Positions 12,635 to 45,964 of a stretch of 64,000 nucleotides of DNA are shown piece by piece; positions within the stretch are counted from its first letter, which is position 1; each line of letters starts with the position of its first letter. Below the pieces are notes generated by a model. That model saw nothing but the letters and a program-made list of their open reading frames with translations, did no database searches and was not told the DNA's origin. This DNA is from Porpolomopsis calyptriformis (taxonomy: Eukaryota; Basidiomycota; Agaricomycetes; Agaricales; Hygrophoraceae), in NCBI GenBank assembly GCA_951640195.1, contig OX621174.1, positions 1,612,001 to 1,676,000 on the forward strand, given 5' to 3'. The position numbers were made by a program, and so were the translations under genes.

Positions 12635-15600
12635 ATGGTAAAGACCAAAATAACAATGTAAGTCACATTCATCATGTTACAACTCAATTTTACATTTTCC
12701 CAGCTGCAAAGTCCCCAATTGTCCGCATCCGCAATTCAGACAAAATTACTGGGACAAGCACAGGAAGAAGTACCACCAAAAAACCGTTAAGAATATTATC
12801 TATTTAGGTATAGCTCCCCAGGCTTCTAATGTCAATGTACTTACATTTTTCACCCAGGTTCTCGGATCAAAGCCATTCGCCGAGAAGCAGTCACCTCGAA
12901 ATTCCCTTGTCTCTGTGGTCTCCCTTCCCATGCCAGATATAGCAGCTCGTGTATCCACTCCCTCTGTAGGCAAACCCCCCACCCGACTCACCCAAATGCT
13001 CACCCCGACTCTGATGACGAATTCCATCTCACTACGATGACGCCTGAAAAAACTCTGAGTATGGAAATGGATACCGAAGCTTTCGATTCCGCACAGGCAG
13101 CATACGTCTTTGCAACCCAACCTTCCAATGCTGAATACGAGTTAAATGGCGCTCTACAACACGACATTGATATGCTTGATCTCCCACCATCTCCGGAAGT
13201 TGGGCATGATTCATCAGCTATGAATACTGGTGAAGTAGATCTGCCCGACGGGTTTGTGTACTGCCATGAATATGACGAGTCAGAACCTGAATGTTCAGAA
13301 GATGGAGAATTTGTTCACGATGAACCCGCTTGCCCCGATTCTCATCAATTTGATCCCTCTGTGGCTGGGAATGCTCGAATGCACCTGCGGGAGAATGGAA
13401 TATTTGTCGACCCAGGATACAACTTGACGATTTGCATTGACTGCGGCAAGTCCATTCGTTACAACCACATGTACGGCCATCGGCACTCTCGGCATTGCTT
13501 TACACGAGAACATTATCGAACCCTGGGAAGCAAAGAATCTCTACTGAAACTGCTTGTTTCATTAAATGCACACCAGACACGCCCTCTTCCTGCGACACCC
13601 ATTCCAATCATTCCTACTCTGCGGGTTATGGTGGCGTATCGTTGTGGAGCAGAAAACTGCACCGAATCCTCAATTTTCTCCTCGAAAAAACGAGTATCTG
13701 AACATTGCGCAGAATGTCACCCACGGCTCCCCATTCGTACTCGTCCATGTATACCCATTCAAGCACACAAAATAGGCTCTTTTCGGGGAGGGCAAGTGTA
13801 TGTCGAGGTTCTCCCGCTAGTGAAAAACTTTCCTGTGGATGCCTTACCAGATATTTTCCGCCACTACAAGGACCTCTCTGTTGGTGTAAAAAGCAAAGAG
13901 TTTCATGCTTCCAAGAATGTACGAGGGAAAAACAAATTTCTCGCGAAGACGCGCTGGGACATAATTCTGGAAGGTGTCAATCTCTGCATGCTCCGTGCGA
14001 TGGCCAAGCCTCCGAATGAACACACTGAACCCTCTCTCGTTCGACTTCACCATTTGACTAGAATATACTATCATGAGATTGCAACTAATCTCCATTCCAC
14101 CCTGCCGACACTTGTCCTCCGATATATACATTCTCCTGATCCAGAGTGGGTTTTGTCTGTTTGACTTGCCTTTCTTCGTTGATTCGAATTTAATTTATAG
14201 AAAAAATCTTAAGAAGGTTCCTTTCCACAAACCAGAGCAGGGTGATACAATTGATCGGGATGCTGATTTCATTACTCTTTTTATAAGCTTTTTGTTTCGC
14301 TCGGAAGATTCTCCTGTGCCGTCATACCATGTGGTAATTCACCCTGACCCTCAAACCGCTCTGGCTCAACTATCCACATCCCTTCAAATGGATTCGGACC
14401 TCAACGTTATGGAACATATTCACAAATTTCTCTATTCGTTACTCTCCAATCCCAGTGTCGATTTCTTAGCCGATGAATGGAAGGATCCATTCCTCCGGTT
14501 CATTGTAGCATTCCACCTTCAAGATGATCACGGCACATTTGCTCATGTTCCGCTGATCCCACCAAATATTTCAAGAGCCCAATGGTGCTTTCGAGCCACA
14601 TGTGTGAGGGAAATCCAATTGCGGAAATTGGAATTTGAAGGCGATTGCTTTGCGTCCGTTTCCCTTTCCACTCGTATTGTCATCTTATACTCACTAATCA
14701 TCAGTGCGTACAACTCTTATATTCGCCCATTCTTGACAGAAAAATCCCCAACAATGTTCAATGTCTTGCGCGAACAGATGTCAATGATCTCAACTCTTGC
14801 GCACAACCACCCTGGCTTTCCCCTCTTCAGTTGGGATGTTCCGAAGCAGAATCTCTCTGTGGATGGTTACATCTTGCCAATGAACAAGTTCATAAACTCG
14901 ATTCATGATGTGATTGACGAAATATCCATGATGATCCAACAAATCTTTCAGAAATCTCGTTATGATGACATTCTTCAGCATATTGATTCACGTCTCGATC
15001 CACAAAACCCAGAACATTGGTTCCGCGATCGCCCTCAAAATTTCTCCATAGGTACATCGGTTTTCAACGAAGATGGCAATGGCTTTCTGAAATTTCGCTA
15101 TCGACTACTGGAGAGTATTGCAACTGATGATATGTTCTTTGCAAAAGTTGACAGAGAGTTCGTGGCGAAACGAGGCACGTTAAATCTTCCACAGTGCCAA
15201 TCCTGGATCCTTACCCTTACCTAGGAAACCTTTGGGTCTGGTTTGGGAAAGTTGACGAGCTTATCAAACTCGTTTTCTTTGCCATTATCTCCACGTGGGG
15301 TGGCTCAGCGCGAGGAACCGAGTGCGATCATCTACAGTTTGAAATCCAAGACAACCAACAACGAAATCTGTATATCCTGAATGGCCTTGTCACCCTTGTC
15401 ACCGAATACGTGAAATCTCGGTCCCATCATGGACACGGTAACCTCATTGCGCGAGCCATTCCTTGGAAGCTTGGCCGACTCGTGTTGCTCATTTACGGTG
15501 TCGTGTTCCCTGCTGCGAGTCATCTGGCAACATATGCATATGATCGACAAGCGGCTGAGGCATATGTCTCATACATGTTTGTACTCAGCGGCAAAATCAT

Positions 15601-18196
15601 GAACAGCGACGATTTCAGCAAGGTTATTTCCATTCAGACATCGAGGAGGTTTGATATCACTATGGGACTTCGTCGTTATCGACAGACGATGGCGACAGTA
15701 CTCACTAACCTTGCTAGTGTCGATTTTGGTGAAATCGACCCGGACGATGCCGATTTGATGGAAATACAGTACTTGTTTGGGCACTCACCTACCACAGGGG
15801 AACGGTGTTACGCAATTCAAAGCTCGAATGCCCTCCGTGAAATTTCCCACACCTCTATCACATCTTCGCAACGGGTTTCCCTCTTATATCATGCAGCCCT
15901 CCATCTTGCGCATCCAAATGTGCCAACATCTGAGCTAGTAGGGCATCGCAACCAATCCATTCTAAGACTAACACCATTTCATTTAGCCTGTCCCTACGTC
16001 GACGAACATCAACTTCGCCGAATTCGTTCCACCTCTCACCAATGTGATCGAGAACGCGCTTGAACACTCTACTGTCACGATGCAATCCCGAATTTCCACA
16101 GTCATTGCAGAGTTAGCGCAAGGGTTGGGTTCCAAGATGCTACAGCAAATGTCCTATGTGGATGGGTCGTCGTTTTCCTTGAACCCCGAAAAAAATCAGA
16201 CCATCATAGTTCACCCTGGCATTCTTCAAGCGATTAATTCTCTTCTTCCTTACGACAAACCACCGGCATACATGATCCCTCAACAAGCTGAAGCTATCCA
16301 AACCTCGACTGGCGATTCCCACGTCCTCATTGTCATGCCCACAGGGAGTGGGAAAAGCTTAGCGTTCTTTGCTGCCCCTTTACTTCTTCCCGATAAAATG
16401 TTCATTGTTATCACACCTCTAATCGCACTCACGGACGATATGCTGAAAAGGTTGGCCGCAACCGGGATTCAGGGAGGGAAATGGGGTCATGAAATCAACC
16501 CATTTAGTGCCCGGTTGGTATTTGTTTCTGCACACCAGGCTGGGACAACACAGTTTTTCTTGTGGGCAAAGACCAACCACAAACGGATTCACAGAATTTT
16601 CATTGACGAATCCCATCAAATCTATACTTCCGACAATTATCGGGACTGCTTCAAGTTATTTGATATGCTCACCGAAGTGGGAAAGCCAATAACGTTCCTC
16701 TCAGCAACCATTTTCCCCCATTCTGTACCCCACCTTTGCGAGCGCATGAGGATCGATCCCAGTCTTTTAATACAGATCCGTGCACCTACCTACCGGCCAA
16801 ATCTGAAGATACAAGTCACTAAATGCAGTAATTTTGAATCGATGGTTGAATCTGTCCAAACCCTTTTCCGATCAATTCAACTACCCCCAGAGGACCGAGG
16901 ACTACTATTTTGTACCTGTGTTTCCAGCTGCAAACACATGGCCAGTTTGCTTGGTATCGACTACTATGTTTCTAAGCTCAAACCTGAAGAAGATGAAAAT
17001 CTCGTGGAACGGTCTCGCTTGGATGCCCAATGGAGAGATGGGTTATTACCGCAGCACCGCTGGATGGTCGCGACGCTGTGCTTCGGCCAAGGAATAGACT
17101 TCGCCAAGGTCCGATGGGTCATTCATATGGAGGTGCGCAATCTCATGACCTATTCTCAAGAAATTGGTTGTGCTGGTCGGGATGGAAATAGGGCGTTTGT
17201 GTATACTTTTTACACTCGCCCTCCCCTACTCTCTGATCTCTCCTCAATTCATGATCACGAAGGAGTGTCCATCATGAACGAATACCTGGAACTCCCTCGT
17301 TGCCGTCGCGTATCTCTCGGAAAGTTCGATCGTTTCGCACACTCGTGTGCTGCTCTAAATGCTGAGCTGTGTGATTATTGTGAACACATATCTACGGTAA
17401 CCTCTTCATCTTTGAACATGCTATGACTGACCTTCACTCGCAGAGACCAATCCTCGATCTCTGCCAGCCCCTGCGTCTTGACTTGCAAACAGACCCCACT
17501 CAGATTAACGCCCATGAACGTGCCCTCCTGAGCAAACATTCCGCTGGAACAGAGCAGGCTGTCCCCTTCACCCGTTTTACATCTAAGAGAATTCCAAATG
17601 AAGTCAATCATTCAGTCGAAAGATCGAGTCTGATTATCCCTACTTCGATTTCGGTTCAGTCCAACGCTCAGACTCTCCAAAGAGAGCGAGCAATAGGTCT
17701 CTTGGAGCTTGAGGAGTTTCAGAAGGTGCTTGACAGACTATCTGTGCATGGATGCGTAGACTGTTGGTTTTCAGGTTGTCGAGTCGACAGATTGACGTTG
17801 CCCCACGAGCATGATCATGGCCCTATGTTCTCCATGTGCAAGAGCAGTCTTAGGTCCATTAAAATCCCTCCAGTTCGCTACTGGCCGTTTTGCTACCTTT
17901 GTTGGGTTCCCTTCAGTGCCCCTTGTTTTCATCCTGCTTATTCGAAGAATGAAATTACTGGTCCCGAACGGTGCCTTCACCGCGACCAGCTTCCTCGACT
18001 GGTCACCCTCATCTGGCTCGACCAAGACAAGCGACATAGACTTGAGGATTTACTAGGTGCATCTGCTATAGGCTTCTCCCCTTTCTCTTCGTTTTGCAAA
18101 TGGATGGTCACTCAAAATATCACAGCTGATCAAATACCTCGCCCACACAAGTTTATCCTAGCATACTATAAAACGTACCAGTGTGTTTTACTATGA
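12635..18196 (+). CDS. C2H2-OrsD-tyrosine-recombinase-like-RecQ helicase
   Basis: Proposed exons 12635-12657, 12704-12807, 12858-14145, 14201-15114, 15195-15919, 15987-17396, 17444-18196 sum to 5217 nt, 1738 aa. In order: an N-terminal C2H2 finger (CKVPNCPHPQ..DKHRKKYH); an OrsD-like pair of zinc motifs (YNLTICIDCGKSI..H and YRCGAENC..HCAECH); a long middle; a region resembling tyrosine recombinases (RGTE, GLRRYRQTMATVL, GHSPTTGERCY); then RecQ: PQQAEAI, PTGSGKS, DESH box, SAT, GQGIDF, QEIGCAGRDG, and a Cys-rich tail. The usual first Arg of helicase motif VI is Cys. Family knowledge: telomere-linked fungal RecQ helicases. At 15115-15224 an 80-bp intron or a one-base frameshift must be invoked; coding-like residues lie inside the intron alternative. 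DNA unwinding is expected; recombinase activity is inference. Confidence 0.82.
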
Positions 18197-18632: not shown

Positions 18633-18942
18633 TGTGGTTTGAGGATCGTAAACTGCTCACTCAAGCATCATTGCAATTGAAGACGGTGAAGCAATGGGCC
18701 GTCAGAGTCTATCATTCATTTGGACACTCTCAAACAGGTCGCAAACTCTATGCCGATCGTTGCAAAAATGAGAACCGTGTGCCTTATGAAGATGACGATC
18801 CGACTCAATATGGTGAGTAATCTTATCAATATTGGGTGCAATAGCTGATATTAAATCGCTCACTGAAGATTGGAAGAGTCACATATCCAGGGTCGTGTCA
18901 TTTGGGAACGAGATGCTTGCGACCGACACTTGGTCAGACTCT
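18633..18942 (+). pseudogene. 310-bp fragment of the JmjC-linked N-terminal domain gene
   Basis: It is nearly identical over 310 bp to 43607-43916, including the 3' part of exon 1 (AVRVYHSFGHSQTGR), the very short intron and the start of exon 2. Only scattered substitutions differ. Both homology edges are abrupt and leave no start codon or C-terminus. It is a recent truncated copy, 25 kb from its source. Confidence 0.9.
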
Positions 18943-21174: not shown

Positions 21175-23675
21175 ACCCTTTACCCCCCTTGCAACTGACT
21201 CTTACTGGGGGTCAATTCGGGGTTATTTGGGTGCAGGAATTCAATGGAATTAACCCCGAGTGGATAGGACCACTGGTTGCTGCTGCAGAGCCACTAGTCT
21301 TACCCTACCCTTTGCAATAGGCAACTGTGATTGCTCAACATCCCCCCCTAGTAACTGACTCTTACCGGGGGTCAATTCGGGGTTAATCAACTGTAGGAAT
21401 TCAATGGAATTGACCCCAAGTGGATAGAGCCACTGGTTACCACTGCAGAGCCACTAGTCTCCTCTTACCCCCTTATAAGAGGCAGCCACTATTGCTCATC
21501 ATCCCCCCTAGTAACTGACTCTTACTGGGGGCCAATTCGGGGTTAAGCTGCTGTAGGAATCCAATGGAATCGATCCCAAGTGGATTGGGCAACTGGTTGC
21601 CACTGTAGAGCCACTAGTCTCCTCTTACCCCTTATAAGAGGCAGCCATGATTGCTCAACATCCCCTCCTAGTAACTGACTCTTACTGGGGGTCAATTCGA
21701 GGTTGTCTGACTGTAGGAATTCAATGGAACCAATTCCAAGTCGATTGGGTGACTGGTTGCCACTGTAGAGCCACTAGTCTTCCTCCCCTCTTATAATAGG
21801 TAATTACATTGCTCAACATCCCCCCTAGTAACTGACTCTTACTGGGGGTCAATTCAGGGTTATTCTGCTGTAGGAATTCAATGGAATCAATCCCAAGTTG
21901 ATTGGGTCACTGGTTGCCACTATAGAGCCACTAGTCTTCCTCCCCCCTTTATAATAGGTAATTACATTACTCAACATCCCCCCTAGTAACTGACTCGTAC
22001 CAGGGGCCAATTCAGGATTATTCCGCTGTAGGAATTCAATGGAACCAATTTCAAGTTGATTGGGTCACTGGTTGCCACTGTAGAGCCACTAGTCTCCCTC
22101 CTCCTTATAATAGGTAACCATGATTGCTCAACATCCCCTCCTAGTAACTGACTCTTACTGGGGGTCAATTCAGGGTTATTTCGCTGTAGGAATTCAATGG
22201 AACCAATCCCAAGTTGATTGGGTCACTGGTTACCACTGCAGAGCCACTAGTCTCCTCTTACCCCTTATAAGAGGCAGCCATGATTGCTCAACATCCCCTC
22301 CTAGTAACTGACTCTTACTGGGGGTCAATTCGAGGTTGTCTGACTGTAGGAATTCAATGGAACCAATCCCAAGTTGATTGGGTCACTGGTTACCACTGCA
22401 GAGCCACTAGTCTCCTCTTACCCCTTATAAGAGGCAGCCACTATTGCTCATTGTCCCCCCTAGTAACTGACTCTTACTGGGGGCCAATTTGGGGTTAATC
22501 CGCTGTAGGAATCCAATGGAATCGATCCCAAGTGGATTGGGCAACTGGTTGCCACTGTAGAGCCACTAGTCTTCCTCCCCTCTTATAATAGGTAATTACA
22601 TTACTCAACATCCCCCCTTGTAACTGACTCTTACTGGGGGCCAATTCAGGGTCATTCCGCTGTAGGAACTCAATGGAATCAATTCCAAGTCGATTGGGTC
22701 ACTGGTTGCCACTGTAGAGCCACTAGTCTTCCTCCCCCCCTTATAATAGGTAATTACATTACTCAACATCCCCCCCTAGTAACTGACTCTTACTGGGGGT
22801 CAATTCAGGGTTATTCCACTGTAGGAATTCAATGGAATTGACCTCAAGTGGATAGCCCCCCTGGTTACCACTGCAGAGCCACTAGTCTCCTCTTACCCCC
22901 TTATAAGAGGTAGCTACTATTTCTCATCATCCCCCCTTGTAACTGACTCTTACTGGGGGCCAATTCAGGGTTATTCCGCTGTAGGAATTCAATGGAACCA
23001 ATTCCAAGTGGATTGGGTCACTGGTTGCCACTGTAGAGCCACTAGTCTCCCTCCCCCTTATAATAGGCAACTATAATTGCTCAACATCCCCCCTAGTAAC
23101 TGACTCTTACTAGGGGTCAATTCAGGGTTATTCCGCTGTAGGAACTCAATGGAATCAATCCCAAGTCGATTGGGTCACCGGTTGCCATTGTAGAGCCACT
23201 AGTCTCCCTCACCCTTATAATAGCTAACCACTATTGCTCAACATCCTCCCTAGTAACTGACTCTTACTGGGGGTCAATTCGGGGTGGTTTTACTGTAGGA
23301 ATATAATGAAACTGATCCAAAGTTGATTGTGTGACTGGTTGCCACTGGAGAGCCACTAGTCTTCCTGCCCTTTATAATAGCTAACCACTATTGCTCAACA
23401 TCTCCCCTAGTAACTGACTCTTACTGGGGGCCAATTCGGGGTTATTCTGCTGTAGGAATTCAATGGAACCAATCCCAAGTGGATTGGGTGACTGGTTGCC
23501 ACTGTAGAGCCACTAGTCTCCCTCCCTCTTATAATAAGCAACCATGATTGCTCAACATCCCCCCTAGTAACCGACTCTTACTAGGGGTCAATTCGGGGTT
23601 GTTTGACTGTAGGAATTCAATGGAATTAACCTCAAGTGGATAGACCCACTAGTTACCACTGCAGAGCCACTGGTC
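21175..23675. repeat. Satellite A, 16 units of ~158 bp
   Basis: The phrase AACTGACTCTTACTGGGGG or a close variant recurs 16 times, near 21192, 21352, 21510, 21672, 21830 and so on to 23571, spacing 155-162 bp. Each unit also carries GTAGGAATTCAATGGAA and AGAGCCACTAGTCT. Units are diverged mainly by transitions and contain few CpG. No coding content. Confidence 0.95.
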
Positions 23676-23682
23676 TCTATAA

Positions 23683-31019: not shown

Positions 31020-33060
31020 TGTATTGCACTCTATAAATCACAATTTCATGTCCATTCGATAGGCACAGTGAACTAATGGTGGGCCCACAGAAAATTCCGA
31101 TTTTTAGAGCATTTGGTATGTCGTGGTGGAAGATAGTAAGGTTTTAGGAGGAGGCATAAGTATAAGTAGCTATAGACTGCTCTAAAAATCGGGGTTTCAT
31201 ATTCAATCGATAGCCCCAGTGTCATAGAGGTGGGGAATACAAAAATCCCGATTTATGGACCATTTGGGGTACCGCAATCAGTGATATAAGGGGTATGGGG
31301 GGGTATATCTCCAACTTATCACAGAGCTCTTTAAAAATCAGGATTTTATGTTCAATCGATAGCACTAGTGTCACAGATACTGGGAATACAAAAATCCTGA
31401 TTTATAGACCATTTGGGGTACCGCAATAAGCTATATAAGGGGTATGGGGGGGTATATCTCCAACTTATCACAGAGCTCTTTAAAAATCAGGATTTCATGT
31501 TCAATCGATAGCAGTAGTGTCATAGAGGCTCGGAATAACAAAATCCTGATGTATAGGCAGAATAAGGTACCGCAATAAGCTATATAAGGGGTATGGGGGG
31601 GTATATCTCCAACTTATTACAGAGGTCTTTAAAAACCTGGGTTTTATATTCAATCAATAGCCCCAGTGTCATAGAGGTGGGGAATACAAAAATCCTAAGT
31701 TATAGACCATTTGGGGTACCGCAATCAGTTATATAAGGGGTATGGGGGGGTATATCTCCAACTTATTACAGACATCTTTAAACATCATAATTTCATGTTC
31801 AATCAATAGCACTAGTGTCATAGATGCTCGGAATAACAATATATGGGTAGAATAAGGCACTCCAATAAGGTATATAAAGGGTATGAGGGAGTATATCTCC
31901 AACTTATCACAGACCTCTTTAAACATCACAATTTCATGTTCAATCAATAGCACCAGTGTTATAGATGCTCGGAATAACAATATATGGTCAGAATGAGGTA
32001 CTGCAATAAGCTATATAAGGGGTATGGGGGAGTATATCTCCAACTTATCACAGACCTCTTTAAACATCACAATTTCATGTTCAATCAATAGCACCAGTGT
32101 TACAGATGCTCGGAATGACAATATATGGACAGAATGAGGCACTGCAATAAGCTATATAAGGGGTATAGGGGGGTATATCTCTAACTTATCACAGAGCTCT
32201 CTGAGCATCAGGATTTCATGTTCAATCAATAGCACCTGTGTTACAAACATTGGGAATAGTCCAATCATCATGTGTAGATAGACTGGGGTGCCGCAAGAAG
32301 TATACAGGAGGTAGGGGGGGGTATACCTTCAAGTTATCACAGAGCTCTCTGAGCATCAGGATTTCATGTTCAATCAATAGCATTAGTGTTATAAACATTG
32401 GGAATAGTCTAATCCTCGTGTATGGATTGACTAGGGTGCCGCAATAAGTATATAAGATATCATGGGGTGGTATACCTTTAACTTATCAGAGAGCTCTCTA
32501 AGCATCGGGATTTTATGTTAAATCAACAGCATTAGTGTTACAAAGGTCAGGAGTAGTCTAATCCTCATGTGTGGAATGATTGGGGTATAGTATGTAAGAA
32601 GTATCGGATGATATACCTTCAACTTATCACAGAGCTCTCCGAGTATCAGGATTTTATGTTCAATCAATAGCATGAGTATTACAAAGGTTAGGAATAGTTC
32701 AATCATCATGTGTGGATTAACTAGGGTGCCGCAATAAGTATACAACAGGTATGGGAGGGTATACCTTCAACTTATCAGAGAGCCCTCTAAGCATCAGGAT
32801 TTTATGTTCAATCAATAGCATTGGTGCTACAAACATCAGGAGTAGTCCAATCCTCATGTGTGGAATAATTGGGGTACCGTAATTAGCATGCAAGAGGTAT
32901 CAGAGGTTATACCTTCAACTTCTCACCGAGCTCTCTAACCATCAGCATGTTATGTTCAATCAATAGCATTAGTGTGATAACATCCCAGAATAACCACATC
33001 CCCATGGGCAGACTGATTGGGGTACCACAATGAGCAGTGTAACACATATAGGTAGAATAG
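31020..33060. repeat. Satellite C, about 13 units of ~145 bp
   Basis: GGTATGGGGGGGTATATCTCC or decayed forms recur near 31289, 31438, 31587, 31738 and on to about 32885, with spacing 139-151 bp. Each unit has ATTTCATGTTCAATC(G/A)ATAG and GGGGTACCGCAAT. Units become more diverged toward the right end, which abuts the stop codon of the minus-strand gene at 33093. Confidence 0.93.
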
Positions 33061-33092: not shown

Positions 33093-36000
33093 TTAGCTAC
33101 TAGATTGCTCTGATCCTGGCTCATCTGTGTACTCTAATGAATCGGAATCGGAATCAGACTCTAAATCTGCCCGTTCCCTAGCAGCCTTGACTCTTGACTG
33201 AGATCTACCTACTATATGTCTTCCTGAACCTGAATCTTCTCTCTCCGCATCTTTCCTAGCAGCGTTCATTCTTGACCGAGTTATCCGCACACCACTCACC
33301 CCCTTTCTTCCCTCGTCTTTCTGGGCAGCCTTGGCCTTTGAGCGAGTAACCCTAACCTGTTGCTCTTTCCCGCTCTCTGAACCTGAAGGATTGTTGTCTG
33401 CTTTCTGTCTCACAGGAGGCTTTCGTTTTTGGTAGATTTTGGCAGACTTTCGGCTCCGAATAGGTGGTTTTATCGATCTCCCCAAGGTTTCATCTAGTCG
33501 TCTCTGAAGTATATTCTTTGAAGCATGAGGCCTTTTTAGGACCTGAGTTCGTGGACGCGCAGCCACCTCTTTCCCAATTTCTTCAATCCGATAGAACTTT
33601 GAATTCGAAATAAAGTTGATCTTGCCTGATTTCATCCCCCATATGACTTGTTTCCCCTTTTTATTCGATAGGCCACCTACAGGAAGGCATTGTAACTGGC
33701 CAAATATATTGTCCAATTCACGGCAGAGCTGATCACCTTCATCCATATCCCAATCCACAAGATATTGGTGGTAAGTGGAGATATATCCTCCAGGCTGGGT
33801 GTATGGTTTCCAGACTGAATTCTCTGGGATCTGGATAGTTTGTTCAGGGAAGAAGGTTGCCCGACGTGCTGAAAATGATAGATCATGGGAGTGACTCAAA
33901 GGAAGCTTTCCTTTAAGGCCACAGCTCGAAGGAAGGAATCGGCAATGGTCAATGCCTATGATATGCTGAATCGCAGGTACCGTCCAAGTCTCCATTGCTT
34001 CCTGAACTGTGGTTGGCTTGGGTAAAACACCTGCTGATGCAAACTGCTCTGCCAGACTTAGCCACAGCTGATGCGTGAACTCAACAAACAACAGCTTTGT
34101 GTAAAGCAGTTCAGGAGCTTCCCAGTCATCATCCAACCTCCATTCCCTAAGGAAAATCTCTGGCTCGGTTTCCAACAGTTTCTGAATTCTTGACCAAGAT
34201 GGATCAGGACCCCAAGGGCACGCATCTTGCTGATACATTTGAATAAGGTGATATGGCTGGTTGGCTTGAGTTGCCTGTGGCTTCTTCAAGGACTGTCCAT
34301 ACGCTTGGATAACCTCAGCTGGATCCTCCTCCGGTAGTTCTCTTAGAGATAGCACTCCTTTCTTCAACTTGAGGTCGTGAAGAAAGAACATTCCGAACCT
34401 CCACATTATCGAACTGAAACGAAGGTCTCGCAACACATCATTCAAGAATGTGTGCTTTATCCTTGGCGTGACCATGGTGTGCTTAATCAGGTGGATGATA
34501 AGCGTAGCCATCATCCCATAGTTGCTTGGTCGATTTCGTGAAAGGTGTAGTTGGACGTTTTGAAACTCTGCTAGCCTTCTTGCCAACAACTTGAAAAAGA
34601 GGCTTGACTTGATCCAAATGATAGGGTCAGACGACATATAGTCTTGTGCCTGGCAATCATTAGACATTTCTAGTTTGCAGTTATTTCGCTGCTTACCTTT
34701 TCAGATGCTACATCAAGAAGCTTTATAATGGCTAACCCACTCCCTCTAACTTCTTCTCTAACGCCGAATGACTGGATTTGAGAAGATTGAAACAGCTTTT
34801 TCCAGTGATCACAGCTAGTCATGAATCGGTCATTTGTCTTGACTGCATCACAGTCATCACATAGGTAGTTCGTTTGGCCAGGAAGTCGCACCACCTCAAA
34901 GCAAAGGTTGTAGCTGGATCGGAAGCAAAGGTGTACAAGCCGACTTTTCTTCAACTTGGTTTCAGCCTGTCTCCCTCCATAAGCTCCAAACATGGCAGTA
35001 TAATGGGTCATTCCTTTTTTCATCCCCATAAGGTCGTACGAGTCGTCGATCCTATCTAACCTCCACAGCCCTACCAATGGCTCCTGATCCTCCCTAGAAG
35101 GAGGATGGTATGAAATCCCAAGATCAAGCAAGAGTTCTCCATGCGATCGGTCCTTCATATAATCCCAGTCCATGTTAGGAATCATCGAACAGAGTGCCTG
35201 ATATATATTCTCGGTTGGGTGGTGCTGCTTAGAGAGCAGTTTGATACCTCGAGCATCTACAACAAAGAAAAAGGACCCGAATCGGCCTAGGAGATCGGGC
35301 TGGTTATTTATGATGTCGCAGAGAGTGGTTCGCATGGAAGAAAATGCTTCAGGTGTGAGGGGAATGGTCTTGGTCGTACGTCTTGTCCCTATTTTCCATT
35401 GGAGATTACTGACGCTTGTAGGAAGATACTCCATAATTCCGGTGTAGTTGGCTAAAACCACTGGCAGAGCAGGCATGATCACTTGTGAGAACCACAACTC
35501 CTGTACCTCCCTTGGCATCAGAGTAGTCATTCTATGCGTTCCTGGGTCTTTCCTAATCATACGAGGGAAGAAGACGTAGGTGTTAAATTGGCCTGATCCT
35601 TGACCCATCTGCCCGAAATGGGTATGTGGCAAGGCACTAAGTGGATACCTTTTAGACCTCTGCCTAGGATTTCGAGTGGTAGGTGGTTGTAGAACCTGGA
35701 CATAGACATGATTGTTGATAGAGAATGGAGGTTTGTCGTCTAACAGTGGAAGAAGGTGAATATTGATTGGACCAATGAACTGTGGTTTATGCGTGACCCA
35801 TATGACGCTGTCGATATCCACCGACACTGACACTTCTTCATCGTCCAGGTTTACTCTATCCTTCTCCAAGTCGAAGTAGATGAATTTGTTGTTGCGTGCT
35901 TTACCTTTTACAAACACACCCTGGCTCTCTGATGTCCCTTCCACCCCTCCCGCCTCATCCAACATATCCTGAGCACCCATCACAGTCACATCTGGGTTGT

Positions 36001-38460
36001 CCATAGCTGGTAGGGAATTCAGCACCTCAGAAGAATGAGAAGATAACGAGGATGGGTATGCAACTGGAGATGATGGTAAACATCCACTTGCTTGATCACT
36101 TGAATCCCAGTGTGGAAGAAGGTGGTCATTGAGGAGAACCGGTTCCTGGTTATTGAACATAGAGAAAAAATCGGCCTGCAACCTATAGCCTCTATCCCTC
36201 CAGATACTCCAGTGCTTGCCCAATACAAGCATTCCATTGGTGTCAAAGGTCCACGTGTTTGGAATGATATCAGCTTGATCCTCGGAGCAAACCAACATAG
36301 CTGATTCGTAGTCATCAAAAGGCTGCTCATCAACGCTTGTTGCTAATGCTTCTTCACCCCCATTCCCATTTAGCTCAACCTCTGGAAGTTGGATTTCAGG
36401 TAGAGACCTTCTGGAAGGCTGAGGTGGTAGGTTGATTACAATGGAATCATCATCGTTGTCATCATTGTCATTGTCATTGTCATCATCATTGTGATTGTTG
36501 TCGTCATTGCTGGCATTGCCATCCTTGTCGTGACTATCCAGAAGATGGCCTAGTTGATTAATATAGGTAGCCTCTTTAGATTGATTATCACAGGTAATCG
36601 GAATGAGATAATACTCACACTTCATACGAGCAGTTGCAAGCGCAAGTGCTATTACCTCGAAACGCTTGAATTTTAAAAGCCCAGCCTTCATATCATTCAC
36701 AACCTCAGAATTGGGTTCCATGGAATACCGAAGCAGGGTCTGAGTCTTGTTCCAGAAGTCATATGATTTTTGTACAGTTTGAAGCGCAGTGAGAAATATT
36801 CTCTCTCGCATCGCATGAACACATTGCAATTTGGGTGCAAGTGGGTGTTGGTTAATGTCTGTGGAATACATCCAACCATTATCAAAGATTTCTTGGCAAA
36901 GCGATGCCATCCAGGAACCAGTGTCGGCCTCACTCTGTTGAAATATGTATATGAATATGCTTCTTCTGTATAGAAACGAGATTTTCACCGTATTCCAATT
37001 CGGTTCGATTACTTGGGGACCTCGCTCATCCAACTCACTACCCAGGATCCACCCAAACACATTAGCAATAGCCCTCCAATAGTAGTTGCCATTCCACTCC
37101 GTCCAATCTGAGTACATATTGGTTTCGAGTGGAGCTCCATGGCTAAAAACAAGAACCTTCTCCTGCTGGTAATCAAATAAAGCTAGCCTTTGGGTTGCAG
37201 AAGATTGCCATGATAGTGGAGGGAAAAATAACACAGGCTTTTTCGGGATAGCAACGTGAGGTGGAAGAAGGAGAGTTTTATGGATTTCGGTAGACAGGAT
37301 GTGTTCTTCTTCTCTTATTACCCTGCTCACCGTTTCCGAGTCTAGATAGTAGGAATATCTCTGAGATGGCATCTGGGGTTGAATGGACATATACCATGAT
37401 TTCAAAAGGTAAATTTCTATGACCGCGTGATCCAGGTGGTTTCCAGGCTTAGCAGATCCCAATGATTGACAAGCTGAAGCCCATATCCTTGGATCTGCTA
37501 GCTTCGTGTCTAATATCCTTAATGAGTCTAATCACCACCAATAATATAAGAACATACCTATAAAAAGCTCTTGCTCAGATCGTGGTAGATTCAATCGAAT
37601 GGCATTTTTTGCTAGTAAATGAGAATGAGCGCTGTCACTTTCACTGGATCCAATGAAATCTGATCCGTTATTGCTAGCTGGCGACGATGATCGGCTTGTT
37701 GAGCTTCTAAAAGTTTAGTATTTAACCTAACATTTCGAATGATAGATTTATTCACCGGTGTCTGGTTTCAAATCGCGAGTTGTTCCTTCTAATATCCACC
37801 GAAGGCTCTGAAGGAGAGCTATAATCACTAAACCTAACCAGTATTAATACGCAAGTATCTTATGATTTCTCTTAAAATACATACCATGCTTTCGCCACCT
37901 GGAAAATAAATAAATGTAAGTTATTATTGTCATAGGTTAATTGAGACATACAGCGTCATTATCCTTTCTACTTATTGCGTTTTGGACCCTTGAAGGACCT
38001 GGCTGGGGACCTAAGGGAGCCAATGGAGGTATCGATATATATTGCTGATCCGAATTCTGGATGTTAAGATGATTTAGGCTAATTAACGTTGTCTGTAATA
38101 ATGTGAGCACTTTAACCTTGAAAACAGATATACACTTACTGAGTATACTGGCTTTTTGTTGATTAATATATGTTTTTTGGAAGGCATATGTTTTTCTCCT
38201 AGCATCGGTATTGGCATTGGCATCTTCTCTGCACAAGGCATATTCAGGATATTACGTATATCACTATCATCTGAACCACTAGAAGTCGAATCCCCTTCCT
38301 GGTTTATTATGGTTTTATTAGCCTCGTAATGATTTAATTGTGTGAATCGAATTAGATACATAACTACTAGGGATAGGCTTACCTTGGCTAGTGAGGACAT
38401 AGCTATGATCCTATCTATATCACTGTCATAATCTGCACCTTCATTTGCCTGGTTTGCCAT
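33093..38460 (-). CDS. Large protein of unknown function (~1,650 aa)
   Basis: Two long frames join across a 47-bp intron (34650-34696) in phase: ASEK then AQDYMSSD. Upstream exons 34697-37527, 37558-37706 and more lead to the ATG at 38460; one intron (37528-37557) would be only 30 bp. Seen: a Ser-rich N-terminus; a very acidic Asp/Asn run near 36425-36515; the conserved-looking block LVGLWRLDRIDDSYD..GMTHYTAMFGAYGGRQAE; a YLCDDCDAV Cys motif; and a basic C-terminus with three repeats of RVTRSKAKAAQKD type plus poly-Ser and acidic ends. From memory such proteins form large uncharacterised families in agaricomycetes. The basic repeats suggest nucleic-acid or chromatin contact, by inference only. 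Satellite C begins directly after its stop. Exons between 37740 and 38460 are not all resolved. Confidence 0.75.
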
Positions 38461-38521
38461 ATTGGAGGTTAAGATCGAGAGCTATGTTTGTGCAATAGTC
38501 GAGACAAAGTGTATCTACATT

Positions 38522-38527
38522 CACGTG
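38522..38527. promoter_or_regulatory. CACGTG in a divergent promoter
   Basis: TCACGTGACATATATATAG lies between the divergent starts at 38460 (minus) and 38590 (plus). CACGTG is the classic bHLH E-box; the adjacent TATATATA could serve the plus gene. See the same motif at 43255, 49553, 56730 and 61341. Confidence 0.45.
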
Positions 38528-38589
38528 ACATATATATAGCTGTGGGAATATAATACGAATAATCAACATTGGTCCGTAGATTTATTATT

Positions 38590-39955
38590 ATGGCACCTAC
38601 AACCGAGGAAAAACAATGGAAATCTGCAAAAGTCGTAGAATACCTCGAGGTTCCTAATCCAAATGATGGTGAGATATCACCTATGCCTTGTTCTATTTGT
38701 TCCGAATCAAAACTTTATAGGCTCTCCTTGCAAATTCGTTAAGAATGACTTGTAAGTGTTTATCGATAATGCTTGAATAGTAGTCATTTGATTATTTCCC
38801 TCAAACACAGCTGCCTCATCCGTCACCTTGGCCTCCATGCAAAGGAAGAAAATAATATTATAATGGACGACTACTGGAAAGGTTTGATCCTACAAATAAG
38901 AAAAACTACTAAGGTGATACACCTGCTCAAGCTACCCTACCCAATGTTGACAATGTGCTTTAGAACAAGTATCTTGCTAAGGTTTCATGGATGTATACAG
39001 CCAAGCAGTTGTTGGAGAGAAGTGATGTTAAGGCTGATACTAAAAGGTTGCATCTCAAAACCTACTCCTTCTCCTGTCACTCTATGTTCTTCTTACTCTT
39101 GACAGGTATATAAACACATTTGGAAAGCAAGAGCTGTGTGGCTCTGATTCTACAGATATCATTGATGCGCAAGCCTTGGAAGGTGAGGGTTATTATATCG
39201 AGAAGCAGATATAAAAGAATGAACTGAACTGAACTGAAAATTAAACTGTAGATACAATCGACATTGTTATTATTAAAAATCAGATTGAAGATCAACCTCC
39301 AGTAACCGCGTATTACATGCGGTAAGCTTGACGATAATACCAACCCATCTATTATACTAAAATTTCTATTAGATACTTCTGGGATGGGCATAGGCAGGCA
39401 TTGAAGGTGCATTCATTGAACTAAACATATACCCTGTAGTAATCTATTGGGTGGTAGGGCGAGCCAGAAATATGTGGCGCAACTCACTGTTATTCACTTT
39501 GGTCCCCCGATACAGAGGAACAACGCTACTGCTGGTCCTGCAAAAGATGGTCCCATCTTACTTGCCTAGGAACCCCTGCCAACATTACCCAGCAGCAGTA
39601 TCTTAACAATCTCTATGCTATAGAGAAGTTTGCCGACACCCCAAAAATTATACTTCAAGTTGCTTTCCAACCCACAGCTAGGGGAGGTCTCACTTATTTT
39701 ACAGCCGGAAATATTAGGATCGTGAACAAGGCTAGAAAGTTGCTTTCTTCACAGGAACGCAGTGTCGTCCAAGCCTCTGGATGGATAGCTGCTCACCTCA
39801 TTGAGGAGTCTCGGTTAAATATGATAGACACTGACTGGGAAAACTGGCTTGAGGCAGAATTCGGCATAGATAACACAGACTCTTATGAGCCATTAGTCGT
39901 TACAGACCAAACATACTATACTTGCCCTCGGTGTAGCTCAGATTTGCTTATTTGA
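38590..39955 (+). CDS. BAH-like domain plus PHD-like zinc finger protein
   Basis: First exons 38590-38668 and 38721-38751, then from 38811, are clean; middle exons are uncertain. KYLAKVSWMYTAKQLL near 38970 and ELCGSDSTDIIDAQ near 39135 resemble the core and end of a BAH domain. The last exon (about 39463-39955) encodes YCWSCKRWSHLTCLG, a Cys/His cluster like a PHD finger, then a helical tail ending in YTCPRCSSDLLI. BAH and PHD domains read histones or nucleosomes, so a chromatin reader is inferred. It is divergent from the large minus-strand gene, sharing a 129-bp promoter. The first ATG after the TATA-like run was taken as start. Confidence 0.55.
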
Positions 39956-40027
39956 TACCTTACCATTCTTCTAGCTTATCTAATACCTACTATCCTTCAC
40001 CGTGTTACTGCTAAAAACTCAGCTATT

Positions 40028-41178
40028 ATGTTCCCCTCCACTATAAAACAAAGTGCAACAGATCTAATGGATGGAATACTGAAAGCAAAGAGAATCGTCG
40101 TGCTCTGTGGTAAATCGACCCATCATCATGTTTCATTCAAATACTTACCTACTCTCTAGGAGCAGGAATATCCGTGGCTGCAGGTATTCCATGTTTTAGA
40201 GGACCAGACGGCTTATATACTGGCAACGCACTATCTGGATTTACCGGAGTCAACCTGACTGATCTGCTTACTAGCTCATCCCTCGTAGTGAGAAATATAT
40301 GTTCAAGTGAGGATTAGTTGACCAAGTTAATGTTCTAGACCCAAAAGCAACAATCACTGCATTGTCAGCTCATTGCCACCCTTGCTGAGAAAGCGGCGAT
40401 CGCACAACCCACTGCCTTCCACCATTTCCTTCGTGCTCTAGACCTCCAAGGAGTGTTACTCCGTGTTTACACTCAAAATATCGATGGTTTGGAGCTCAAG
40501 GCTGGGTTACATATGTCCTCAGAAATTCACCCCAGTGATGGACCAGCCCGATGCATTCCATTGCATGGATCCCTAGAGGAACTACGATGCCCTGGCTGCT
40601 CCTCCATTTTTATCCTCGAACCATACTACCCCTCTTTGAAAGAGGGCCAACTACCAGAATGCACTGAATGTCAAATCAATATGGAAAAGAGGGTAGAGCA
40701 GGGCAAACGCAGAACGACTGTGCCTCGACTCCGACCCAATATCATTCTTTACGGAGAACCACATCCTCGAGGAGAAGAAATAGCAAACGTGCAGCAAAAT
40801 GATCTTGGGTTAACTACCACCCCCAGTCGCCAACTAGATCTTCTCCTTGTGGTTGGCACTAGCTTGAAAGTGAAGGGTACTACTGACTTTATCAAGCAGT
40901 CCGCTAGAATCTTAGCAAAAAATTCCCCCAAATCCAGTTTACAAGCATCGCCTCAAGTTATATATCTCAATAATACCTTTACAAACACAGCTACGTGGGC
41001 TGGTATATTCGACGCTTGGATAGACATGGACTGTGAAGAGTTTGCACGGTTGGCATTGAAAAGGATGGAGGAGATGATTGCGTCAGGTGAAATGCTCGAA
41101 AGCAACCACACTCAGGTTCAGGTTCTCTATGGAGACAGAAAGCTTAACTACAGACCATCATGGAGGTTATGGTCTTGA
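40028..41178 (+). CDS. Sirtuin, Hst3/Hst4-like NAD-dependent protein deacetylase
   Basis: Exons 40028-40109, 40160-40287 and 40339-41178 give 1050 nt, 349 aa. Motifs in order: GAGISVAAGIPCFRG, YTQNID, the catalytic His in CIPLHGSLEELRC, two CxxC pairs (CPGC, CTEC) for zinc, PNIILYGEPHP, and GTSLKV for NAD binding. The order and YTQNIDGLE..GL resemble Hst3/Hst4, which remove H3K56 acetylation and guard genome stability. One oddity: the usual GIPDFR motif is GIPCFR, so the conserved Asp is Cys. It lies about 70 bp after the BAH/zinc-finger gene in the same direction. Confidence 0.9.
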
Positions 41179-41712
41179 TAAAATTACTGAATTAGCATCT
41201 ATTACGCTGCATGCATGTCGCATCAAACTTTCCACAAATATTAATCAACTTGTATTGCTGCATTCCAAGCTAGTTACTATATAAGTCTACTACATACGAT
41301 TTGTGCTAAACCTGTGTAGACATGTTGAGCTGTGTGCAGGTGTAAATTAGCAAGTTCACATGCGCCACTCCCATCCCATTTTGGTATGCAAATGTGATGT
41401 CACGCATAACATATCAAGTTGCTTTGATACTGTATTGATTAACTCCCAGCTATCTTGTCTGTGTATGCGTGAATATCAACTAGCTGTTATGTACTTATGA
41501 AGTGATGTGCTATGAAGTGATGTGTGAGGAGCCTAAGTAGTGATCAAGAGCTGTGACTCACACACGAAACTACTTCCAGCACCACAATGGCTATACGCAT
41601 GCGATTGAATGAATGCTTATTTTTTCACCACATCTAGATAAATTTTATGCTGATTATCTTGTTTTCATGCAGTTATCCACCCACCCCCAAATGTAACTAC
41701 CCTTGGAACCAA
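41179..41712. other. Intergenic
   Basis: AT-rich, with no coding frame. It would hold the sirtuin 3' UTR and the promoter of the next gene. Confidence 0.4.
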
Positions 41713-42797
41713 ATGATGTGTTCTTCTCGATGCTTGGATGCGGATAATAATCGGTGGTCGAACGATCGCTCTCCTGTTCCACCAAGCGACACCATCTGGC
41801 TCTTTGAGGAAATCAGCCACCCTTTCACACAACCTGACTTGACCCTCAAATTGAACCAGCAAAAGCAGATCATTTTACATGCTTTTTGCAAAAGCAGAAA
41901 CAAACATCGACACTACACTCTCCCTCTATCGACCACACTTCAGATCGCTCTTCTTGACCTTGAATACTGGGCGAATGTTGCTAACCCTCATCCCAGTGCA
42001 AATCGTATCACACGTTACCTGGAAAGGCTCAGGTCTGATCTCTGGGTTGAGTTATCACAAAACCATGGCAGCTTTGGCTCTAGCTTCCAACCTAAAACGA
42101 CAATACCGTGGGCAGTTAGAATGAATCACTTTTTTGGCCACTCTTTCTTCGGCAGACGGGAGTACCTTCAGAAATGCAAGGCAAATGGGTGGACTCCATA
42201 CACCCATGAAGACCCAACCTTATACCGTAAGAGGCAGCTTCTGCATACACAAGCTTCCCTTATCTCATCATGCTTTCCAATTCAAACTACATAGAATGGC
42301 ATACTTTATTCGAAACCCATACAAACTGGCTAAGCAGGGGGTTCCAGCTATGTCTCCAGCAGCTAGAATCACACACGAAACCTCCCCGGTTTGACAGAGG
42401 GCACTCTGTGACCTGTGCGCTTGCTTTGTTCCTTGGAGTTAACGGTGAGAGTAAATGAAATCAACATCTTGGCTTAGGGATGCTCTAATGCTATATGCTT
42501 CTCTTTGCTACTGGCATCAATGAAAATACAGCCCAACAGTGGGCTAACGATGTTCAGGAGAAGAATATCAACCCAGATTCCCATGGATATGGTGTAAATA
42601 CATCATCACCTACCCATGAGGCTGATCTTGGGTAGGTCTGTAAGACACACATGGTTCACATTCACTCATTGTGATCATTTAGTATTTCACAGCTAGCAAT
42701 GAATCTTTCAGCTGATAATGATCAGCCAGTGGGATCCCATGGTGCATTTCATTCAGATGAATTTACCAAGCTGATACTGATCCAAGATCCAAGCTGA
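41713..42797 (+). CDS. Stand-alone member of the JmjC-linked N-terminal domain family (292 aa)
   Basis: Exons 41713-42226, 42295-42444, 42532-42631 and 42683-42797 sum to 879 nt, 292 aa, ending in TGA. It shares with 43285-45964 and 46967-47732 an N-terminal module: a hydrophobic mid-section (LDLEYWANVA), a basic helix (RYLERLRSDLWVELSQ), and PWAVRMNHFFGHSFFGRREY then DP.LYR, with an intron one base into the codon after the final Tyr. Exon 2 (WHTLFETHTNWLSRGFQ) matches the second exon of the relatives. It stops where the JmjC protein continues, so it lacks the dioxygenase. Function unknown; a DNA- or protein-binding partner is speculation. Confidence 0.7.
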
Positions 42798-43254
42798 GAT
42801 AGAGGGGGGGCAGCCTCAATTCTCCGATAACAGTGTTACCATTCCTCCACGATTCGAAAGGAAGATGAAGACGAAGATGAAGACGAAGATGATAATGAAA
42901 GTTTCTTGATGTTTTTTGTTTTTTTACATGCGAACAGCAGCTGCAAGTTACCATGGGACTTACAGATCATTGTAGCCACCTTTCCTCAGCGGTATACCTC
43001 ACACCTCCACAATCTGTATCCTTCACTTCAATAAATTATAATGAGGATGATGGTTTTCACCGTAATATTTATAACTCCTTCAACCAGATGAAGGAGTAGT
43101 GGAATGAATCAAATGGCAAAGAAAACGTCAGGGCTTCTTTGTCACCCTCAAACTTGAGAATACGGCATTCATTTATAGCACATGATCTAATCCAAGTCCT
43201 GGATAGAATCATATCGTCTTTGTAGCTTTCAAACTCTTTAATCGAATAAATACC
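42798..43254. other. Intergenic
   Basis: Contains a purine-rich GAAGATGAAGACGAAG run near 42862. No gene was recognised. It carries the promoter of the JmjC gene. Confidence 0.4.
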
Positions 43255-43260
43255 CACGTG
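43255..43260. promoter_or_regulatory. CACGTG upstream of the JmjC gene
   Basis: ACCCACGTGACC lies 24 bp before the ATG at 43285. Confidence 0.4.
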
Positions 43261-43284
43261 ACCCCCACACATACGTTCATTATC

Positions 43285-45964
43285 ATGGCCACCCAACCGA
43301 TAGCCAACAAAGAAGGAGAGCTATTTGATGATGAGGCTTTATGGCCAGCCAAGACATCCACCCTCTTGAATAAACCGTCCAATTTCTGGCGCTTCTCAGA
43401 ATTATCAACCCAAACAACATTCAAGCTCTTTTTCTACCACAACAACTCACTGCGATCTCGCGAAATACACATCCATTACCGCTCTATCCTTGCTTTCCTT
43501 GACCTGAGTCATCGCCACAGCTGCCTTGAAGCAGAGAACCAGGTACGACATGCAGGACGAATCAAACAGTACCTCCAGAACCTCTGTTTGGCCGTGCAGC
43601 ATGAGTTGTGGTTTGAGGATCGTAAACTGCTCACTCAAGCATCATTGCGATTGAAGACGGTGAAGCAATGGGCCGTCAGAGTCTACCATTCATTTGGACA
43701 CTCTCAAACAGGTCGCCAACTCTATGCCGATCGTTGCAAAAACGAGAACCGTCTGCCTTATGAAGATGACGATCCGACTCAATATGGTGAGTAATCTTAT
43801 CAATATTGGGTGCAACAGCTGATATTAAATCGCTCACTGAAGATTGGAAGAGTCACATATCCAGGGTCGTGTCATTTGGGAACGAGATGCTTGCGACCGA
43901 CACTTGGTCAGACTCTCCAGCGACGGCTGGCACTTCAAGCGATGCCGCTCAAGAGAAATCTGACTCGCTGCAATATCTTATTGCGATCGGATTCATCAAC
44001 CATCCCAATGAACTGGGCCAAGGAGTGAGCGCCGCTAGTCTTCCCCAAAAACGATCTTTGTCCGATGATGAAGAACCCACGAGTCGAAAAAAACATCAAC
44101 CAGCTACGATATCTGGTATGTGAAGTTATTCGCATCGCATCATCCTTATGAAGAAGAAGATAACGCATAACATCAGCACCCCTCACCCAGAATAAGCACG
44201 ACTACTTTACTTCGTTGAGGGGAGTGAACTTTCCCCAGGACGCATCCTCGATTCAATGGGCCAATGGGTCGCAAACCGTACTTCCATGGGTTCACGTTCC
44301 GGGCCATCAAAATGCAGTCCGTCCATCATTTTGTGCTCGTTCTTGATCAGCTAACTGAAGCTTTGTTAAGGACGCTAAATTAGTTGAGGTGCTTGCCAAA
44401 TCACCTGATGGTTCATCTGCAACCCATTCGATAAACAACTGGGACTTGGATGAAACTAACTATGTCGTTATCCCACCAAGAGAACCTTCCCAACCACTTC
44501 ATGCCATCGATGAAGCCGTGCGACTCCATCTCGCTAATCAGCGATGCATTATATTACAGGGTCAACATCTTGAAGGTCCGGAGACGTTTTGTAAGGAGGA
44601 GATCGAGGCAGCAAGGGGTCCATTAAGCCAGCCAGTTCAGTGGCATGGTACGTAAAATCCATCTCTACGATTACTGTGGTTTAATACTGTATAGACGCAA
44701 GATTGCGTGCAGTCGGTAGGTCCAAGAAGGAGTCAGATGGCATCATCCACAGCCACTCTTCCCTGGGGGAGTTTATCGAGGCATCTGAGGATGTAGACAT
44801 CTGTGGAAATATCCTGGATGCCCCTTCACTGAGAAATGCCGCCCCCTCTATTATATGGTAAGAGTGCTGAGAGCTTGTACATTGGCTTATTTCAACAAGT
44901 AACCTTAACAGTCGAATAAGTGACGAAGCACTCGCATTCCAGCTCACAAAACATGAATCATTCGCGAAGTTTTGGAAGCACCCTCCAAAGGACAAGTCGA
45001 AGCATCACAAGATGCCGAATACTCGACAAGAACTAGTCCTTCCAGGGCCACAGGTTATTCGGATGTGCACCTGGCAAATGATGCAGTGGAACCTGCTGAC
45101 GCATGCTGGCTTCGTAACATTCCCCCACAAGGATGCTAACGGCTTGTGTACCTGGATCTATGCGCACGCCGGGATAAAAATTTGGGCCATTATTCGACCT
45201 AGATACACAAAAAGTCACAACTCCCGGAACAAGTTGCGCAGCCTGCACAAGGATATTTGCTTCAGTCAACTACACCAACTGAATCAACATGCTCAGATTT
45301 TCACGACGTTTCTTTCTGCAGGGGAGATTCTGTAAGTTTTTATATTATTAACGCTCTAAAAATTGATTACTCATGCTCATATATTGATTCTATGTGTCAG
45401 AATTATGCCTCCTGGCATTTGGCATGCCGTATACACCCCCACGCCAAGCTATTGTTCGGGAGGTCACTTTTATACCTATGAGACGCTTCACCTCACTGAA
45501 CAATCGCGGGACTTCGACCATATGCATGGTCATTTTTCAACAAATGCAAATCACCACGTCTCAAGGTTGCTTTCTCGCATGGTTTTAGCGCTTCCACATG
45601 TCGCCAAAAGTCGAAGTGAGCACGTGAATGAATGATATCCCCTCATTTTTGTTTAAAAGCTAGCTTTCCAGAAATATATCGACGGCCATTCTTGGCGCTG
45701 GCCAGAATGATTCTCAAATCGAATGAGTACCTTTTGCCGGGTGAGCAGAAAAGGCCAGACCTTCCGATGACCGAGTGGGATGTCCTTTTTCAGGAGGAAG
45801 AAGGAGAAATCAACGAGGCCCAGAAACAGATCAAGGCGATACTAGAAAGGGCAGGAATCAGCCTGACAGCTATGGAGTCAGAAGTACTCGTCAGTGGAGA
45901 GCATTGGATGGCGCTCAGTGAAGAAAAATGTTTATCCACCGAACTTTTTCTTCCACCGCCATAG
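43285..45964 (+). CDS. JmjC-domain 2-oxoglutarate/Fe(II) dioxygenase with family-specific N-terminal module
   Basis: Exons 43285-43786, 43819-44115, 44177-44316, 44371-44647, 44695-44857, 44912-45331, 45401-45615 and 45660-45964 sum to 2319 nt, 772 aa. The first 170 aa are the shared module (AVRVYHSFGHSQTGR). A basic linker follows (KKHQ). The JmjC core has TFPHKDANGLCTW, giving the HxD iron ligands, KIWAIIRP with the likely 2-OG Lys, and LIMPPGIWHAVYTPTPSYC with the distal His. The C-terminal exon is helical and acidic. The first intron would be only 32 bp, though phase supports it. JmjC proteins demethylate histones or hydroxylate proteins or RNA; the substrate here is unknown. Acceptor of the last intron (AAAAG) is weak but keeps the long downstream frame. 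Confidence 0.83.

Follow-up and report, generated by a model that had tools for sequence, protein, structure and literature searches.

Gene Structure and Domain Order

The window analyzed here comprises 64,000 nucleotides of the basidiomycete Porpolomopsis calyptriformis (bases 1612001-1676000 of contig OX621174.1, here C12, with 1,691,343 bases; genome 33.5 Mb, 17 contigs). On its forward strand, which carries all gene features described below, a gene at 12635-18196 resembles the fungal telomere-linked RecQ-like helicases (TLH) and has a RecQ-type helicase core. Between the zinc finger and OrsD region at its N-terminal end and this core lies what is, by fold and homology, almost certainly a tyrosine recombinase. 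Such a domain at this place had been proposed in an original prediction from the DNA sequence, and the predicted fold, the residue conservation and a deep profile comparison agree with it.

The gene model was predicted by inspection and consists of seven exons (12635-12657, 12704-12807, 12858-14145, 14201-15174, 15225-15937, 15987-17396, and 17444-18196) coding for 1754 amino acids in a frame that is open throughout. The ATG at 12635 and the stop codon ending at 18196 confirm the gene limits given earlier. A frameshift between exons 4 and 5 was considered and rejected: no GT-AG intron retained the conserved residues, but a GC-AG intron of 50 nt (intron 4, 15175-15224) does, and residues and spacing then match those of homologues such as P0012. 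Since this intron restores the frame, the gene was not called broken there. The remaining five introns are of the GT-AG type with lengths of 46-55 nt.

The catalytic domain of the recombinase was placed at approximately 14813-15850 by fold and profile comparison and is split by the intron 15175-15224. It is preceded by a possible core-binding-like helical domain (14064-14812, limits set by eye, split by the intron 14146-14200), which is suggested by the predicted model of a homologue (m1a2b06cbbb71). The helicase core of superfamily 2 follows at 16197-17396 (residues 1105-1504) with the motifs PTGSGKS, DESH, LSAT, and QEIGCAGRDG, and its Pfam domains DEAD, ResIII and Helicase_C all score over the cut-off. 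The RQC and HRDC domains of a canonical RecQ helicase were reported neither in the exons of the window gene, which differs from a canonical RecQ in this respect, nor in six scanned homologues; only DEAD, ResIII, Helicase_C and OrsD were.

At the N-terminal end, a C2H2-like zinc finger (CKVPNC...H...H) was found at 12705-12776 (residues 9-32), and the homologues P0013, P0017, P0029, P0032, and P0038 have a comparable Cys/His pattern. The OrsD zinc region (PF12013), likewise part of the original prediction, could be detected at 13409-13720, but weakly, with 25.1 bits on the exon (cut-off 26.6) and 27.9 bits in the genome search. It exceeds the cut-off in P0010, P0019, P0039, P0103, and P0113 and stays under it in P0118. 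Behind the helicase core, a C-terminal Cys/His cluster (17753-17905, CVDCW...HEHDHG...CYLCW) is, judged by its sequence, a possible zinc site. The closest named homologues of the protein belong to Suillus, Chiua, Tricholomella, Lanmaoa, Boletus, Lyophyllum, and other mushrooms.

Conservation of the Recombinase Residues

The motifs RGTE (residues 826-829), GLRRYRQTMAT (with R946 and R949) and GHSPTTGERCY (with H983 and Y992), on which the original prediction was based, are all present in the protein. The segment named there, 15195-15919, begins inside intron 4 (15175-15224), and the recombinase probably extends upstream of it.

For the conservation analysis, 98 sequences were aligned, namely the window gene, the loci L028, L029, L031, and L036, and 93 of 118 database proteins. 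The 25 excluded proteins are P0058 and P0113, which could not be placed, and others that were without the full segment or were RecQ-type helicases from the tail of the search. The named members among the relatives added for this set are presumably ascomycetes, except for one record filed under cork oak. A smaller alignment of 26 rows (A1) contains the window gene and 25 of 33 database segments; those excluded from it, some of them degenerate (P0011, P0013, P0024, P0027, P0029, P0030, P0036, and P0037), are counted in the tallies of 34 and 98 rows. A further alignment, A3, consists of 11 of the 18 rows of alignment A2. The alignment positions 29, 32, 63, 149, 152, 186, and 195 correspond to R826, E829, K860, R946, R949, H983, and Y992 of the protein.

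Among the relatives, the two Arg, the Lys, the His and the Tyr are conserved. Of the two outcomes that would have refuted the original prediction, a predicted fold unlike that of tyrosine recombinases and a lack of conservation at the Arg and Tyr residues, neither occurred. Box I contains Arg826 and Glu829 (RGTE, 15311-15322), with R in 94 and E in all 98 rows, aligned to R148 and E151 of the recombinase XerD. Lys860 (15413-15415), which presumably serves as the catalytic Lys in the beta hairpin, is located between two strands of the model and is present in 98/98 rows. The Arg of box II, Arg949 (15680-15682; R in 96/97), is aligned to R247 of XerD, and the His of box III, His983 (15782-15784; H in 92/98), to H270. 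Nine residues past His983 lies Tyr992 (15809-15811), the presumed nucleophile, which is aligned to Y279 and conserved in all 98 rows. The Arg residues of boxes I and II, the His (or Trp) of box III and the Tyr nucleophile, by which the tyrosine recombinase/topoisomerase IB superfamily is recognized, occur in order. All six residues (R, E, K, R, H, Y) are retained in 87 of the 98 sequences; those deviating in at least one of them are L036, P0030 (gap), P0036, P0037, P0087, P0088, P0100, P0102, P0115, P0116, and P0117. For the window gene with all 33 segments, the counts are 32/34 for R29, 34/34 for E32, K63, and Y195, 33/33 for R152, and 33/34 for H186. In the 26-row alignment, G26, R29, E32, Y61, K63, F118, G122, R152, Q153, H186, and Y195 are invariant.

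At the position of the box II His, the window copy has Arg946 (15671-15673), so the reading of this box as RxxR in place of HxxR was right for this copy. Among the 98 rows, R (43) and Q (35) predominate here, followed by S (7), A (4), K (3), L (3), W (1), T (1), and one gap. Two positions earlier, at alignment position 147, a His is present in 25/98 rows, so that some members of the family may have a catalytic His that is displaced.

In eight comparisons with homologues, conservation of the window gene is roughly equal in the catalytic domain (39-53%) and in the helicase (41-55%). One pair of paralogues within this genome, L029 (C12:19000-28999) and L031 (C1:350500-360499), shows purifying selection on the recombinase domain, with a synonymous divergence (dS) of 0.38, a nonsynonymous divergence (dN) of 0.05, and a ratio of 0.13 over 206 codons. 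In the helicase parts, the two paralogues hardly differ (dS 0.03-0.06, ratio 0.36-0.37), and in the OrsD exon they are widely diverged (dS 1.24). This mosaic divergence suggests a gene conversion of the 3′ half. It appears as if the DNA-binding end diversifies and the 3′ half is homogenized.

A different explanation of the domain is that only the recombinase shape was kept, for DNA binding or dimerization as in yeast Ndc10/Cbf2, and that the helicase works in telomere maintenance in hard times. The Lys and the Tyr conserved in 98/98 rows and the six residues retained together in 87/98 speak against such a domesticated fold, which is considered unlikely.

Among the relatives, P0088 (906 aa), P0114 (926 aa), and P0113 (1132 aa) have OrsD without a helicase among their Pfam domains. 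P0114 retains the recombinase residues, P0088 all except the Arg of box I (His instead), and P0113 carries DUF7924. Further OrsD-bearing relatives in which no helicase was seen are L042 (4043-7445) and its ∼90% copy L041; the second open reading frame has a recombinase-like GHTNATARCNY and IPPRAFQ. These two loci possibly represent a helicase-less sister lineage in two frames.

Structure and Profile Comparison

Two predicted models were compared with known structures. With VIA-align, recombinases and topoisomerases IB rank first for both, as expected from the original prediction of a tyrosine recombinase fold; Foldseek alone gave weak agreement with recombinases for one model and none for the other. 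The catalytic-domain fold of the superfamily was thus found in predicted models, with weaker support by Foldseek. In the BFVD library, 132 matches with E-values of up to 10 were obtained, none below 0.001, and the top 19 include several proteins with integrase in their name. For the homologue model m1a2b06cbbb71, 10 of 14 Cre rows cover the N-terminal domain of Cre (242-266 residues) at a loose root mean square deviation of 5.3-6.8 Å, and the other four cover the catalytic part only. By this homologue model, the recombinase is probably larger than the segment named in the original prediction, with the first catalytic strands, and perhaps the core-binding-like domain, located upstream from ∼14064.

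An enzyme like topoisomerase IB or a telomere resolvase, which nicks and reseals one strand or resolves DNA joined end to end without strand exchange between sites, is another possible explanation of the domain. It is regarded as improbable.

The E. coli recombinases XerD, XerC, FimB, and FimE share R148, E151, K172, H244, R247, H270, and Y279 (XerD numbering), and the RxxE of box I and the step of nine residues from His to Tyr are identical in them and in the TLH family. Deep profiles (98 rows versus 65 rows of Xer and phage integrases) were aligned with a score of 36.7, an E-value of 4.6e-5 and a probability of 68.6%. Column-shuffled recombinase profiles averaged 12.7 and peaked at 19.2, and none of 60 reached the observed score. 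In this alignment, R29, E32, R152, H186, and Y195 are matched to their XerD counterparts. The profile of 65 rows was built from 61 of 160 loci and the four E. coli proteins; 62 loci had been picked by hand against near-duplicates, of which one was filtered out due to internal stops. The profile PF00589 had no match in the own genome and matched all 14 control genomes, and a homologue search with the paralogue L031 as query found one protein.

A chance resemblance of motifs within an ordinary TLH would fit the fact that no library hidden Markov model recognizes the segment. Since structure comparison, deep profile comparison and conservation concur, it is considered extremely improbable.

Helicase Motif VI and the State of This Copy

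In helicase motif VI, the first Arg is replaced by Cys1429 (17169-17171), a replacement that had been noticed before and is real. In a tally drawing on P0001-P0038 only, 33 of 34 agaricomycete-type relatives aligned at this position have Arg. Given this ratio, the helicase of the window copy may be weakened, with the recombinase residues intact. In the DESH motif, the third residue is S, where mostly A or C is found (A 29, C 5, V 1, S 1).

These two replacements, together with the finding that the window gene is a single copy in the genome, would suit a decaying relict, whatever the rest of the family does. The 1754 codons open across seven exons and the retention of all recombinase residues speak against this, and a relict is regarded as somewhat doubtful.

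Distribution in the Genome

The genome has nine known loci that match the helicase or the recombinase, one of which (C1:34508) is truncated and has the recombinase match only. Seven of the nine are located less than 100 kb from a contig end, where at most 10% would be expected (binomial P 3e-6, for copies that are not independent of each other). Telomere repeats were found at only one of the examined contig ends, the left end of C12, and a TLH copy is located 2-3 kb away from them. The window gene lies 61 kb from the right contig end, which lacks a telomere repeat, a figure that gives the distance to the contig end and not to a telomere. The DNA to the right of the gene is common to other contig ends.

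Proposed Function

The gene probably encodes a single-chain tyrosine recombinase-helicase, with a zinc finger/OrsD region, a Cre/Xer-like recombinase, a RecQ-type core and a C-terminal Cys/His cluster. Judged from the residues, the recombinase may well be active in the family, which is favored here over an inactive one. A mobilizing or end-rearranging role is suggested only tentatively, and the role as a self-mobilizing or telomere-maintaining element, raised in the original prediction, would have to be read in the same conditional way.

We infer catalysis, the target, the part of the helicase, DNA binding by the zinc modules and mobilization as follows. A site at the element or within subtelomeric sequence would be recognized by the zinc/OrsD region together with the part of the protein that precedes the catalytic domain. 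Tyr992, activated by Arg826, Lys860, Arg949, and His983, would cut and rejoin strands, and the helicase would open or migrate the junction or copy out a strand. The gene and its flanks could thereby spread among chromosome ends. In its widest form, the proposal is that the TLHs of Dikarya form a separate class of mobile DNA elements at chromosome ends, in which a single active recombinase-helicase cuts and exchanges strands at telomeric or subtelomeric sites while unwinding, spreads itself, and reshapes or rescues ends; this is a possible reading, put forward with reserve and held with slightly less confidence than the mobilizing role as such.

Several results weigh against the reading of the gene as a mobile recombinase-helicase. 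For exon 5 (15227-15937, 237 residues), no Pfam or PHROG family and no credible sequence match in the PDB were found, neither singly nor as an alignment. The 26-row alignment compared by hhalign with the four E. coli recombinases gave no significant result (probability 0.3%), although R152/R247, H186/H270, and Y195/Y279 were nonetheless paired, and in the deep profile alignment K63 (Lys860) is three columns off K172 of XerD. In the structure comparison, Foldseek found no match below an E-value of 0.001 in either structure library; for a homologue model of 616 residues it ranked unrelated helical proteins first and XerH at rank 28, where VIA ranked recombinases first. At residues 168-202 of the model, the region holding the Tyr, the predicted local distance difference test score (pLDDT) is below 50. 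A His at the box II position is present in 0/98 rows, which would lower the catalytic activity of the family without excluding it. Other bona fide recombinases carry substitutes for this His, and for this reason it was not taken as defining. The single copy and the Cys in motif VI count against the window gene in particular, and for the TLH copies no element termini, target duplications or true empty site were found.

Should the proposal hold, TLH genes, hitherto described as helicases, may cut and rejoin DNA besides unwinding it. With a conserved active site of a recombinase on the helicase chain itself, a testable chemistry is at hand, that of a Tyr nucleophile, and this site may also be a reason for the multiple copies of TLH genes and their link to chromosome ends. 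Since the domain escapes the Pfam and PHROG models, the annotation of TLH genes is incomplete.

Comparison with Known Systems

To our knowledge, the fusion of a tyrosine recombinase with a RecQ-type helicase would be a new architecture among the enzymes of eukaryotic mobile elements. Full-text literature searches, with preprints and most subscription papers outside their scope, found no paper joining TLH or OrsD with tyrosine recombinases among the matches listed. Within this scope, a fungal fusion of the two enzymes was not found described; the gene family that contains it has been studied on other grounds.

Members of the TLH family have been described from Ustilago, Agaricus, and Fusarium (PMC10532341, PMC7473861, PMC7593156, PMC12857005; here and below as given in excerpts of the papers). 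In the excerpts, a role in telomere maintenance is proposed or called unclear and is always argued from the helicase. TLH is mentioned in one legend of the excerpted review PMC8381367, and for TLH a Ustilago maydis paper of 1998 is cited in PMC10532341. The main text of the Fusarium paper does not contain the words recombinase or OrsD. The TLH-like genes of this genome share the RecQ-like core, OrsD, the occurrence in several copies and the location of many copies near contig ends with UTASa of Ustilago maydis and the subtelomeric RecQ of Agaricus bisporus var. burnettii (PMC10532341, PMC7473861). They differ in the tyrosine recombinase domain, as the excerpt on the Agaricus RecQs reports them without any domain besides the helicase core (PMC7473861).

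With Xer, Cre, and phage integrases, the gene has in common the predicted catalytic fold, the residues R-E, a presumably equivalent K, R, H, and Tyr, and an equal spacing from His to Tyr, whereas the box II His is replaced and the domain is fused to a helicase and zinc modules. From the Arg of box II to the His of box III there are 34 residues here versus 23 in XerD. CryptonF elements likewise join a fungal tyrosine recombinase to another DNA-binding module. According to the excerpted source, they carry GCR1_C, and most fungal ones have terminal direct repeats of 6 bp (PMC3212892). No GCR1_C was found by Pfam in the exon proteins or in P0010, P0019, P0039, P0103, P0118, and P0113, and terminal direct repeats of 4 or 6 bp were not found here, where no element ends could be defined. 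The captains of Starships (DUF3435) are, as described in excerpts, fungal tyrosine recombinases linked to mobile DNA as well. DUF3435 (PF11917) had no match in the genome, in a search that also matched no control genome, and we know of no helicase fusion among captains. In the Rep-helicase of Helitrons, a strand-cutting tyrosine enzyme and a helicase are united in one polypeptide, with an HUH Rep domain and a Pif1-type helicase. The window gene resembles it in this fusion and differs by its tyrosine recombinase fold and RecQ-type helicase.

Repeats and Contig Ends

A high-copy repeat begins 437 bases past the stop codon (window positions 18633-18941 onward) and recurs, 98% identical, at no fewer than 39 further sites in the genome. 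At the 18941 junction, there is a Helitron-like 3′ end with the hairpin ACATCGGATCTTCCGATGT followed by CTAG, which recurs in L030, L031, and L039 and which we take to belong to the Helitron family. A 3′ boundary shared by three TLH copies (L031 3087) was rejected, as the boundary in L031 marks where a Helitron-like insertion ends, and L029 and L049 share native flank. Likewise, an empty site at 30837/30839 of the window, where the flanks of L031 seemed contiguous, was rejected. On its left, the junction coincides with the terminus of a repeat that occurs in at least 38 other places, and its right junction lies within another repeat, so this is merely one repeat beside or inside another.

The window region 34776-43775 equals C1:1-9000 in reversed orientation with 99.9% identity, a duplication between two contig ends. 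A copy of at least 9.6 kb with 99.8% identity, beginning at the telomere repeats of C12, was found near the right end of C3. The telomere repeats at the left end of C12 (L028 1-136) mix CCTAA and CCCTAA units. Satellite arrays with periods of ∼157 and ∼149 bp are located at 21183-23677 and 31180-32975 of the window and are common to other loci. Finally, repeat matches occur at constant steps on C5 (49495-167002; 29,310 bp), C1 (84097-293025; ∼52 kb), and C16 (17722-165890; 49,281 bp), which look like tandem arrays of very long units.

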